Source of the DNA: Candidatus Omnitrophota bacterium
GTDB taxonomy: Bacteria; Omnitrophota; Gorgyraeia; Gorgyraeales; Gorgyraeaceae
Assembly (NCBI GenBank): GCA_030691625.1
Contig: JAUYDX010000084.1
Location: 1-42,707 of the forward strand
DNA length: 42,707 bases
Direction of reading: 5' to 3'
In this document: positions 35,052 to 42,707 of the stretch, piece by piece
Layout of the letters: every line of letters starts with the position of its first letter
Numbering within the stretch: the first letter of the stretch is position 1
The notes under the pieces: model-generated
Told to the model about the DNA's origin: nothing
The model's database searches: none
The model's input: only the letters and a program-made list of their open reading frames with translations
Program-made: the position numbers and the translations under genes

Positions 35052-35324
35052 TGGCTCCCCGGGCAGGACTCGAACCTGCGACATACTGGTTACAAGTGAC
35101 CCGAAATTACTTTCGGACTTGGACTATATCATCTCCATAGCTATTGCCGTAGGAGGCGGGTATATAGTCTCTGCACGTTTATCCGCTGATAATACTGGCG
35201 GAATTTAGCTCAGGATTGCCCTTTTTGAGGGTTTCCCTGAATTAGCCCGCTTTTTCAATCCCGATTTCTCGGGAAAGCTGCCATTATTGACAGCCAGTCG
35301 CTCTACCAACTGAGCTACCGGGGA
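35052..35324 (-). tRNA. tRNA-Asn(GUU) interrupted by a group I intron
   Basis: Exon 1 (35290-35324, 35 nt) starts TCCCCGGTAGCTCAG and ends ACTGGCTGT. Exon 2 (35052-35092, 41 nt) is TAACCAGT, the variable loop ATGTC, the T arm GCAGGTTCGAGTCCTGC, the 3' acceptor strand CCGGGGA, discriminator G and encoded CCA. Joined, they give a 76-nt tRNA with anticodon loop CTGTTAA between stems ACTGG and CCAGT, anticodon GUU. The T at position 1, G at 73 and the ATGTC variable loop agree with bacterial tRNA-Asn. The break falls between anticodon positions 35 and 36. Confidence 0.88.
35093..35289 (-). other. group I intron, 197 nt, in tRNA-Asn (IC3-like)
   Basis: The exon end GCUGU pairs with the intron guide GCAGC, giving the U-G wobble at the 5' splice site (P1). 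The intron ends in G just before TAACC. P2 is CCCGA-GAAA-UCGGG. P4 is UCAGG/CCUGA within the P element (AAUUCAGGGAAACC) and Q element (AAUCCUGAGCUAA). The R element GUGCAGAGACUAUAU pairs with the S element AUAUAGUCC (P7). P9 is CCGAAA-GUAA-UUUCGG. It contains no open frame for a homing enzyme, and its size is typical for self-splicing tRNA introns. Confidence 0.85.
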
Positions 35325-35360
35325 GTGTGTAATTTGTAAAGAACAGAAACTTCTCGACTC

Positions 35361-35377
35361 GTCCGCCTGCGGCGGAC
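35361..35377. repeat. G+C-rich hairpin between POR beta and tRNA-Asn
   Basis: Stem GTCCGCC/GGCGGAC around TGC, flanked by partly complementary CGACTC/CTCG. It lies between the porB stop and the tRNA 5' end in the direction of transcription. It may be a weak terminator (AAGTTTCTGTTCTTT follows on the minus strand) or an RNA processing signal. Confidence 0.5.
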
Positions 35378-35398
35378 TCGCTCGAAGAATATTGCTAT

Positions 35399-37351
35399 TT
35401 AAGCAATTTTGCAGGTTGAATTGCAAAGATTTTCAAGGCGGGCCCAGTTATCATCCACGCCTTTCTGGATCTCGTCTATAACGGATTTATTTTCTTCTGT
35501 GAAAAGATGGCTGAAGCGGCCCTGGGATTTTAGCCATTCGATAACAGGTTTTCTCTCTTTAGGCTTGTATGTAAAGCGCCATACCCCGTTTTCCACCTCT
35601 ATCAGGGGCCATACGCCTGTTTCAACAGCCAGTTTTGATATCTCTATGGACTTTTCCTGCGGGAATCTCCAACCTCTATGACAGGTAGCGATTACATTTA
35701 AAAACGCCGGGCCGTCTGCCGCGAACGCCTTTTCAGATTTTGTAACAAGGTCATTCCAGTTAGATGCGGATGCCTGAGCCACGTAAGGTATCCTGTGAGC
35801 AGCTACTATAGAAGTAAGGTCTTTTTTAAACTGTTCTTTTCCATGACTTTCTTTTCCATGAGGCACAGTGGTCGTTGATGCACCTTTGGGAGTAGCCCCT
35901 GAACGTTGCGCGCCCGTATTCATATAAGCCTCGTTATTGTAGCACACGTAAACCAACCTATGGCCCCTTTCCAATGTGCCCGAAAGAGATTGTAACCCTA
36001 TATCGTAAGAATTTCCGCTTAAAGAAATTTTTCCATTTCTTTTTATAATAACGGTATGATTTTTTTTCAATTGAGGACAATAAACAAAACCTTTATAGTT
36101 CTCCAGCGTTACCTGTTGCTTATCACCATACAGTTTTCTTCTGGAATATAATTTATGTTTTAAATATTCATTATCTATGCCTATTCTATAAATTCCATCC
36201 TTCTTGGACACGCTACAATTTCTACCTAATTTTAATATCAATTCTACCATGTCATTCATGAGCATAGTTGAGGCTGTTATATATCTAAGGTGATAGCTGC
36301 TGCGATTTTCCTGTTTAGTTACAGAGCCATCCCCATCCATTAATGAACCAAATATTTGCCTGAGATGACCCTTGTCAAGAGCCAATGCCCACTTTGGTAT
36401 TCTTTTGTTCTTAGATCCTTTGCCACATTCTTTTTCTAAATATTCGTAAATCTGTTTAGATTGAAAATCTACAGATCTATTACATTTAAAAGGAGACAGG
36501 CCAAGATTCTGTAATAACTTATAAATTTTCTCCTTTTTATCATTGTTTGATTGATATATGCGAATCAGATAACCAGATTTGCTCTTATATAAACACCCCT
36601 CTGAAATATACCAACCTAAAAATCTTAACCACTTATTTATCTCAAACTTGGAAAATTCCTTTTGATATGTGTATTTAGGTATTTTAGGAATATCTATATC
36701 AGATATTTTTATTCCATTTCCATACCAATAAAATTTTCTTAAAAAAGCGGTCTTATATCTTTTTATTAAGTCTATGCCCTTAATAAATTCCCATCTGCCT
36801 TTATACCAGATTGGCACATTATGATTAGGAGTTATTAAAAAATCTATAAAGCGGCTTTTACCTCTTATCATCGCGCCTTTATATGGGTATTGATGCAATT
36901 TTTCATTTTCCTGTAATTCTAATTCATTGGTCTCGGGATTTACTGACCAAATTTTTTCACCTACTTTTATGTCTTTGATATTCTTAAATCCATTTTCGGT
37001 AAATATATCTGTATCATCGGAATAACATCCGCCGTCTCCGCCAAAAGCGACAAACTTTATCTCTTTTGTGATCTTGCCTTTTTTCTTAAGCGCCCTGTAA
37101 GCTGTTTCCACGCCGCTCATCGTGGCAGCTGAATTTTCAAAGGCATTATGTATAAAAGGTATTTTCCATGCTGTAAAAGGATATATCGTAGTGGCTACTT
37201 CCAGGCAGCCTGTTGCTGAACCTGCTACAACGTAATCTTTCGTGCCCATTAAAACCTGGCGTACCACTGTTGAGGCCCCGCACCCTGCGCAAAGCCTGTG
37301 TCCGCCTGAAAGCCGTTCCGGTATTTTAGCTAATTCTTTTATGTTTGCCAT
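35399..37351 (-). CDS. porB: pyruvate/2-oxoacid:ferredoxin oxidoreductase beta subunit containing an intein
   Basis: A 650-residue precursor. The host protein (residues 1-108 plus 448-650, 311 residues after splicing) is the thiamine-diphosphate subunit of POR. It has ERLSGGHRLCAGCGAS with the cluster/TPP Cys pair, GSATGCLEVATT, FGGDGG with the Mg-TPP motif resuming at SYDIGLQSL, and VYVCYNNEAYMNTGAQRSGATP. The intein occupies residues 109-447 and splits the TPP motif exactly between GGDGG and SYDIG, so unspliced protein cannot be active. With the alpha, gamma and delta genes upstream it makes the four-subunit enzyme converting pyruvate (or a related 2-oxoacid) with CoA and ferredoxin to acetyl-CoA and CO2. 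One base separates it from the alpha gene. Confidence 0.93.
   Translation of the reverse strand: MANIKELAKIPERLSGGHRLCAGCGASTVVRQVLMGTKDYVVAGSATGCLEVATTIYPFTAWKIPFIHNAFENSAATMSGVETAYRALKKKGKITKEIKFVAFGGDGGCYSDDTDIFTENGFKNIKDIKVGEKIWSVNPETNELELQENEKLHQYPYKGAMIRGKSRFIDFLITPNHNVPIWYKGRWEFIKGIDLIKRYKTAFLRKFYWYGNGIKISDIDIPKIPKYTYQKEFSKFEINKWLRFLGWYISEGCLYKSKSGYLIRIYQSNNDKKEKIYKLLQNLGLSPFKCNRSVDFQSKQIYEYLEKECGKGSKNKRIPKWALALDKGHLRQIFGSLMDGDGSVTKQENRSSYHLRYITASTMLMNDMVELILKLGRNCSVSKKDGIYRIGIDNEYLKHKLYSRRKLYGDKQQVTLENYKGFVYCPQLKKNHTVIIKRNGKISLSGNSYDIGLQSLSGTLERGHRLVYVCYNNEAYMNTGAQRSGATPKGASTTTVPHGKESHGKEQFKKDLTSIVAAHRIPYVAQASASNWNDLVTKSEKAFAADGPAFLNVIATCHRGWRFPQEKSIEISKLAVETGVWPLIEVENGVWRFTYKPKERKPVIEWLKSQGRFSHLFTEENKSVIDEIQKGVDDNWARLENLCNSTCKIA
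36011..37027 (-). mobile_element. LAGLIDADG intein in porB (339 residues)
   Basis: Block A is CYSDDTDIFTENGFKNIKD (Cys1 nucleophile, residue 109). Block B is FLITPNHNVPI with the TxxH-like TPNH. The homing endonuclease has two LAGLIDADG-type helices, LRFLGWYISEG (242-252) and IFGSLMDGDG (333-342), with acidic Glu251 and Asp341 at their ends. Block F is VYCPQLKKNHTVIIKRNGK and block G is SLSGN followed by Ser448 of the host. The terminal Asn is present, but the penultimate His is replaced by Gly. The DNA is visibly richer in A+T than the flanking porB. All splicing residues needed for a class 1 reaction are otherwise present. Confidence 0.9.
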
Positions 37352-42628: not shown

Positions 42629-42707
42629 TGGCGGAGAGGCAGGGATTCGAACCCTGGATACAGCTTTTCAACCGTATGGCGGTTTAGCAAACCGCTACCT
42701 TAAACCA
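42629..42707 (-). tRNA. tRNA-Ser(GCU), 5' end outside window
   Basis: Minus strand: part of the D arm (TGGTTTAAGGTAGC), anticodon stem GCGGT/ACCGC with loop TTGCTAA (anticodon GCU), a long variable arm (CATACGGTTGAAAAGCTGTATC, class II), T arm CAGGGTTCGAATCCCTG and 3' acceptor with encoded CCA. About 14 nucleotides of the 5' end lie beyond the window. Confidence 0.93.

Follow-up and report, generated by a model that had tools for sequence, protein, structure and literature searches.

Group I introns within the anticodon of tRNA-Asn(GUU) in an Omnitrophota bacterium and its relatives

Group I introns have long been known from tRNA genes. The closest described systems are the introns of tRNA-Leu(UAA) in cyanobacteria and plastids and of tRNA-fMet in cyanobacteria (Paquin 1997 and Biniszkiewicz 1994, as cited in PMC8450103 and PMC4033280). 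They resemble the intron described here in being small group I introns that interrupt a bacterial tRNA in its anticodon loop, with the same core, a U-G pair in P1, and a terminal G. Some tRNA-fMet copies hold a reading frame (PMC5733544). Bacterial tRNA introns have been reported for tRNA-Leu, -fMet, -Ile, and -Arg (PMC8450103, PMC4033280, PMC5733544), and most bacterial and plastid tRNA introns sit at position 37/38 (PMC4033280). The introns described here differ in host (tRNA-Asn, and also tRNA-Tyr), in the position of the break (between positions 35 and 36), and in the guide, in which GCAGC reads CUGU. Asparagine is outside the documented host isotypes, which are an attribute of the described members rather than a strict requirement. 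Other compact tRNA-hosted group I introns are about 200 nt long, with a core that lacks P5abc and no endonuclease; compared by description, the present intron is like them in size, compact core, tRNA host, and absence of an endonuclease, whereas isotypes and guides differ.

Other systems are comparable in some respects. First, tmRNA group I introns are likewise widespread in bacterial phyla, follow the same boundary rules, and mostly lack an endonuclease, but they lie in the T-loop, and their endonucleases, present in 4.1%, are of the LAGLIDADG type (PMC11915505); about 31% of the resolved Asn introns have an HNH frame. Second, Ca. Velamenicoccus archaeovorus, also a bacterium of the OP3/Omnitrophota type, has a group I intron, but this one lies in the 23S rRNA and was detected as RNA in vivo (PMC13153191). 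Third, the anticodon loops of cyanobacterial tRNA-Arg, -Gly, and -Lys hold introns that their authors call group I, but the reported lengths are 22-49 nt (PMC5733544). They are probably something other than group I introns, because they are too short for a group I core. In the open literature searched, mostly without subscription journals and preprints, neither tRNA-Asn nor tRNA-Tyr appears as the bacterial host of a group I intron, and neither the 35/36 position nor the HNH-bearing form was found. Because the scope of this search was limited, and because many matches of this kind will already be present in automatically annotated databases, we do not claim priority.

The DNA analysed here is a 42,707-nt stretch (the window) of contig JAUYDX010000084.1 from Candidatus Omnitrophota assembly GCA_030691625.1 (G000). 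Two other genomes of its class contain an exact OP3-565 probe target, a hint of Omnitrophota membership. A split tRNA-Asn(GUU) gene occupies window positions 35052-35324 on the minus strand, in exact agreement with the first-pass annotation, which had been made from the letters alone. All pairs of sites with a 5' exon ending in U and an intron ending in G were scored with ARAGORN. The best-scoring tRNA-Asn(GUU) has a 5' exon ending ...GACTGGCTGT, an intron running from CAATAATGGCAGC to TCACTTG, and a 3' exon beginning TAACCAGT. This confirms the proposed 197-nt intron and the break between positions 35 and 36, inside the anticodon; the joined halves form a clean 76-base tRNA-Asn(GUU) with an encoded CCA, so that splicing would rebuild the tRNA exactly. 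Run without introns, ARAGORN reports no tRNA in the window; run with introns, it miscalls the split gene as tRNA-Pro. Standard callers miss split tRNA genes of this type, and the genomes appear to be without tRNA-Asn. The features of the locus are collected in Table 1.

Table 1. Parts of the split tRNA-Asn(GUU) gene and its group I intron, in window coordinates
Feature	Coordinates	Strand	Evidence
5' half of tRNA-Asn(GUU), positions 1-35, ending CUGU (C32 U33 G34 U35)	35290..35324	-	ARAGORN splice scan, exact coordinates
Group I intron, 197 nt, no notable open reading frame	35093..35289	-	RF00028; tRNA reconstruction, P1 U-G wobble, terminal G
3' half of tRNA-Asn, with positions 36-73 and an encoded CCA	35052..35092	-	Splice scan, exact coordinates
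Internal guide sequence GGCAGCU, P1 partner of 5' exon GGCUGU (35290-35295), U-G at splice site	35276..35282	-	Sequence
P2 hairpin UCCCGA/UCGGGA	35259..35274	-	Double changes in 6/6 pairs; 97.3% of cells paired
P3 5' strand GCGGG, partner 35156-35160	35246..35250	-	Double changes in 4/5 pairs
P3 3' strand CCCGC	35156..35160	-	Alignment of homologues
P4 (UCAGG 35236-35240 / CCUGA 35210-35214) around P5	35210..35240	-	P4 double changes in 4/5 pairs
P5 (CCC 35229-35231 / GGG 35219-35221), inside P4		-	Double changes in 2/3 pairs
P6 (GC/GU) and P6a (UCCGC/GCGGA)	35175..35209	-	P6 does not vary; P6a aligns poorly, with 47-74% of cells paired
P7 5' strand GACUA, partner 35122-35126	35165..35169	-	Alignment of homologues
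P7 3' strand UAGUC	35122..35126	-	Alignment of homologues
P8 (CUCC/GGAG)	35133..35155	-	Double changes in 3/4 pairs
P9 hairpin CCGAAA-GUAA-UUUCGG	35101..35116	-	Double changes in 5/6 pairs; 99.7% of cells paired
Intron terminal guanosine	35093..35093	-	Sequence; 3' splice site rebuilds tRNA

What is the evidence that the intervening sequence is a group I intron? A covariance-model search (Rfam cmscan) found the group I core, with a match to RF00028 at 35100-35300(-) that covers the whole model (1-253 of 253) and scores 82.4 bits (E 1.3e-19), above the gathering score of 50. The P1 helix with its U-G wobble at the 5' splice site, P2, P4, P7, P9, and the terminal G, whose boundary is set by the tRNA reconstruction, are all as the first-pass annotation had described them. 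P3, P5, P6, P6a, and P8 can be drawn as well, with P3 and P7 in a pseudoknot relation. The annotation was also right in giving the intron a guide sequence of its own. GGCAGCU reads the 5' exon, and its GCAGC is invariant in 56/56 homologues. Across these 56 homologues, standard pairs fill 93.8% of the structure cells, versus 31.6-51.1% when the partner strand is slid, and cells with changes on both sides number 425, versus a shuffled mean of 123. Compensatory changes are extensive in P2, P3, P4, P5, P8, and P9, with several double-change pairs in each; for example, the P4 core switches from CAG/CUG to GCU/AGC in one branch. P7, the guanosine-binding site of group I introns, is conserved yet yields no covariation, because four of its five pairs are constant and the remaining one is broken in a single sequence. 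The intron has a short P5 and no P5abc-like extension. Given this and its short length, the label IC3 is plausible.

The intron has many relatives, and their distribution is known from phylum genomes and viral contigs. At least 35 of the 147 genomes of the class carry tRNA-Asn introns at the 35/36 site. A stricter pattern that requires a P7 strand matched 36/147, including one false tRNA-Ala match, and among the standard tRNAs of these 147 genomes it gave only Asn besides that false match. The pattern GTAAYCAS... matched mostly intact tRNA-Thr on genome contigs and again in a first viral scan, after which stricter patterns were used for the viral contigs. An asparagine host, which the first-pass annotation called at least uncommon, did not turn up in the literature searched but is common in this bacterial class. 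The proposed separate transfer into a new tRNA thus concerns one copy of a widespread family rather than a unique transfer. All 68 Asn introns with both halves resolved break between CUGU and UAA, and their lengths range from 189 to 689 nt. An HNH-type frame is found in 21 of the 68 (about 31%). It lies in the P1 loop, after the 5' splice site and before the guide, which the 3' end of the frame overlaps in several introns; it matches an HNH endonuclease in PHROGs (E 2.8e-29) and scores at or slightly below the cut-off against Pfam HNH. The window copy has no endonuclease frame, as first described, and no HNH relative was found elsewhere in G000, a weak negative obtained with no positive control. 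Several introns without an HNH frame have a P1 loop filled by GC-rich palindromes (GCGAGCGAAGCGAGTGC). In four genomes, the equivalent site of tRNA-Tyr(GUA) carries a like intron, and CUGU is common to both tRNAs. The tRNAs that have GUN anticodons, those for Asn, Tyr, His, and Asp, share U33-G34-U35; no His or Asp hosts were seen. Other group I introns also occur in these bacteria. G000 itself has a second one, in tRNA-fMet(CAU) (L002, contig C100, 420-598 (-), 61.7 bits), and introns in this host are present in many relatives. Further group I introns in relatives (L066, L074, L075, L076, L077, and L083) apparently interrupt rRNA genes, judging by their flanks.

How did the intron reach this locus? 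Within the genus of the window, it is present in G000, G006, and G008, and the survey of relatives for intron-free alleles found that in G001, G007, and G010 the gene following the same coding sequence at this locus is an intact tRNA-Asn. Of the two hallmarks of homing, intron-free alleles in close relatives are therefore present, and an intron-encoded endonuclease is absent from the window copy. A tree of 82 introns places the window copy inside a clade of 31 introns from other bacterial families (99/99), separate from the clade of its own genus (G006, G008, G017, and G018; 100/99); a third group holds the copies of G012, G013, and G015. The site appears to have been entered repeatedly, because congeners are empty at the locus and the introns of the bacterial family belong to separate lineages. 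At least two separate entries within the bacterial family are well supported by these sequence comparisons, and three are likely. A purely vertical history, in which the intron descends from the ancestor of the bacterial family with some losses and no horizontal entry, would fit the identical insertion site in all copies; losses would likewise make presence patchy, and the test does not reject a clade uniting the window intron with those of G006, G008, G017, and G018 (p-AU 0.22). However, the position of the window copy among other families, apart from its own genus, argues against such a history, as does the rejection of a single clade for all eight introns of the bacterial family (p-AU 1e-41), and we regard it as improbable. 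Recombination may also have acted on the gene. Although the introns of G006 and G008 are of one lineage, a comparison of the tRNA-Asn exons (L534-L538) pairs G006 with the window copy (its 5' half is 100% identical) and G008 with the intron-free congeners G001, G007, and G010, including an odd D-arm (GCTCAATGGTAGTAGC). This mismatch of exon and intron suggests recombination at the tRNA-Asn gene. One genus offers a natural series of empty, HNH-less, and second-lineage alleles, extended by the series across isotypes, that allows tests of intron homing, endonuclease loss, and guide retargeting.

Is the split gene the only tRNA-Asn of the cell? The G000 assembly (1.44 Mb, 101 contigs, 91% complete) gave 30 tRNA matches, none of them tRNA-Asn; several other tRNAs are also missing from this list, which does not cover all isotypes. 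No intact tRNA-Asn was found in the roughly 91% complete assembly by pattern, tRNA model, or DNA search, so the second copy that might have undermined the first reading did not turn up there. The DNA search with the spliced tRNA returned the two halves and partial matches of 75-83% identity, the best of which is a tRNA-Lys(CUU) by location. In a relative assembled as a single contig (G041), the sole tRNA-Asn matches are the two split halves. Of 384 genomes from the phylum, 77 have the split-type junction pattern (a count that takes in some tRNA-Thr genes), 57 have an intact tRNA-Asn, and only one (G390) has both. Since no second tRNA-Asn was found, splicing is probably needed for asparagine decoding and essential to the cell, with the proviso that a second gene could lie in the missing ~9% of the assembly. 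The same evidence bears on the idea that the window intron is a dead relic and that an intact tRNA-Asn elsewhere does the work. The incomplete assembly and its partial set of isotypes leave some room for this, but the near-complete mutual exclusion of the two gene forms, the core without a broken helix, and the exons that still form a perfect tRNA make it very unlikely.

Two other readings concern the identity of the gene and of its splicing agent. In the first, the gene is a tRNA-Thr(UGU), with the halves ...ACTGG and CTTGTAACCAGT forming the anticodon stem-loop; it draws on the last bases of the intron, CTTG, and on the string GTAACCA, which is common to intact tRNA-Thr(UGU) genes. However, the 5' exon would then end in G and there would be no P1, the introns of relatives end in ACTG, TTCG, or AGTG and make the loop impossible, the orthologous empty alleles at the locus read CTGTTAACC, that is, Asn, and the first pair, U-A, and G73 are asparagine-like. 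We therefore reject the tRNA-Thr identity. In the second, protein enzymes would splice the sequence as in archaeal tRNA introns, an idea that its location in the anticodon loop might prompt and that the complete, covarying group I core leaves with almost no chance; moreover, bulge-helix-bulge introns depend for their removal on an archaeal or eukaryotic endonuclease, which is not known from bacteria.

The reading that we prefer, and hold with high confidence as a whole, is a self-splicing group I intron of a homing family. In the precursor, the guide GGCAGC would pair with the 5' exon GGCUGU to form P1, and a guanosine bound in P7 would attack after U35. The freed U35 would then attack after the last G of the intron, joining G34-U35 to U36. 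This ligation would restore the 7-base anticodon loop, with an expected mature junction of CUGUUAACC. By recognizing C32-U33-G34-U35, introns of this family would enter tRNA-Asn and, in some relatives, tRNA-Tyr, and homing of HNH-bearing copies may have spread them between lineages. HNH-less copies such as the window intron could derive from HNH-bearing ones or have moved by recombination or reverse splicing. Mobile ribozymes thus seem to have settled repeatedly in an essential tRNA, and the locus is more interesting as part of a family that is widespread and has been transferred repeatedly than on its own.

In contigs classed as viral, this site of tRNA-Asn is likewise occupied by group I introns, and so is that of tRNA-Lys(UUU), there with the guide altered (GAAG against CUUU). 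Nine of the 12 viral contigs scanned reach the Rfam gathering score (L402, L409, L410, L414, L421, L429, L443, L466, and L485), and the viral contigs with tRNA-Asn or tRNA-Lys introns also include L458 and L479. Most of the twelve contigs have their introns within dense tRNA arrays. The viral status of these metagenomic contigs is the label of the collection, spot-checked: three contigs sampled for phage genes gave endolysin, methyltransferase, and phosphoesterase matches. It has been stated that phage introns occur only in protein genes (PMC3984707), a statement that the presence of such introns in phage-like tRNA islands would correct. In Aeromonas phage 4_4572 (L505, 1333-1743), an HNH gene of the intron endonuclease family lies right behind an intact tRNA-Asn, placed as a free-standing homing enzyme would be. 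We put forward, tentatively and with more doubt than conviction, a broader possibility: that a lineage specialized for the 35/36 site changes a few guide bases to move among Asn, Tyr, and Lys tRNAs, that phage tRNA islands serve as its reservoir and vehicle, and that an essential single-copy tRNA has become ribozyme-dependent in much of the class. Viral contigs L423, L432, and L440 also hold candidate introns in tRNA-Met(CAU).

The surroundings of the split gene have features of their own. It adjoins a 650-aa frame at window positions 35399-37351 (-) that resembles the beta subunit of 2-oxoacid:ferredoxin oxidoreductase (TPP_enzyme_C). Within this frame is an inserted, intein-like LAGLIDADG_3 domain, with FGGDGG before the insert, CYSDDTDIF...SLSGN spanning it, and SYDIG after it. 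Between the upstream gene and the tRNA, at 35340-35400, is a stretch of about 70 bases that contains a GC-rich palindrome (cgactcgtccgcctgcggcggactcgctcg) and is absent in congeners; the palindromes in the P1 loops of introns without an HNH frame are similar. Finally, at 42632-42707 (-), the end of the window cuts a tRNA whose anticodon loop reads like that of tRNA-Ser(GCU).
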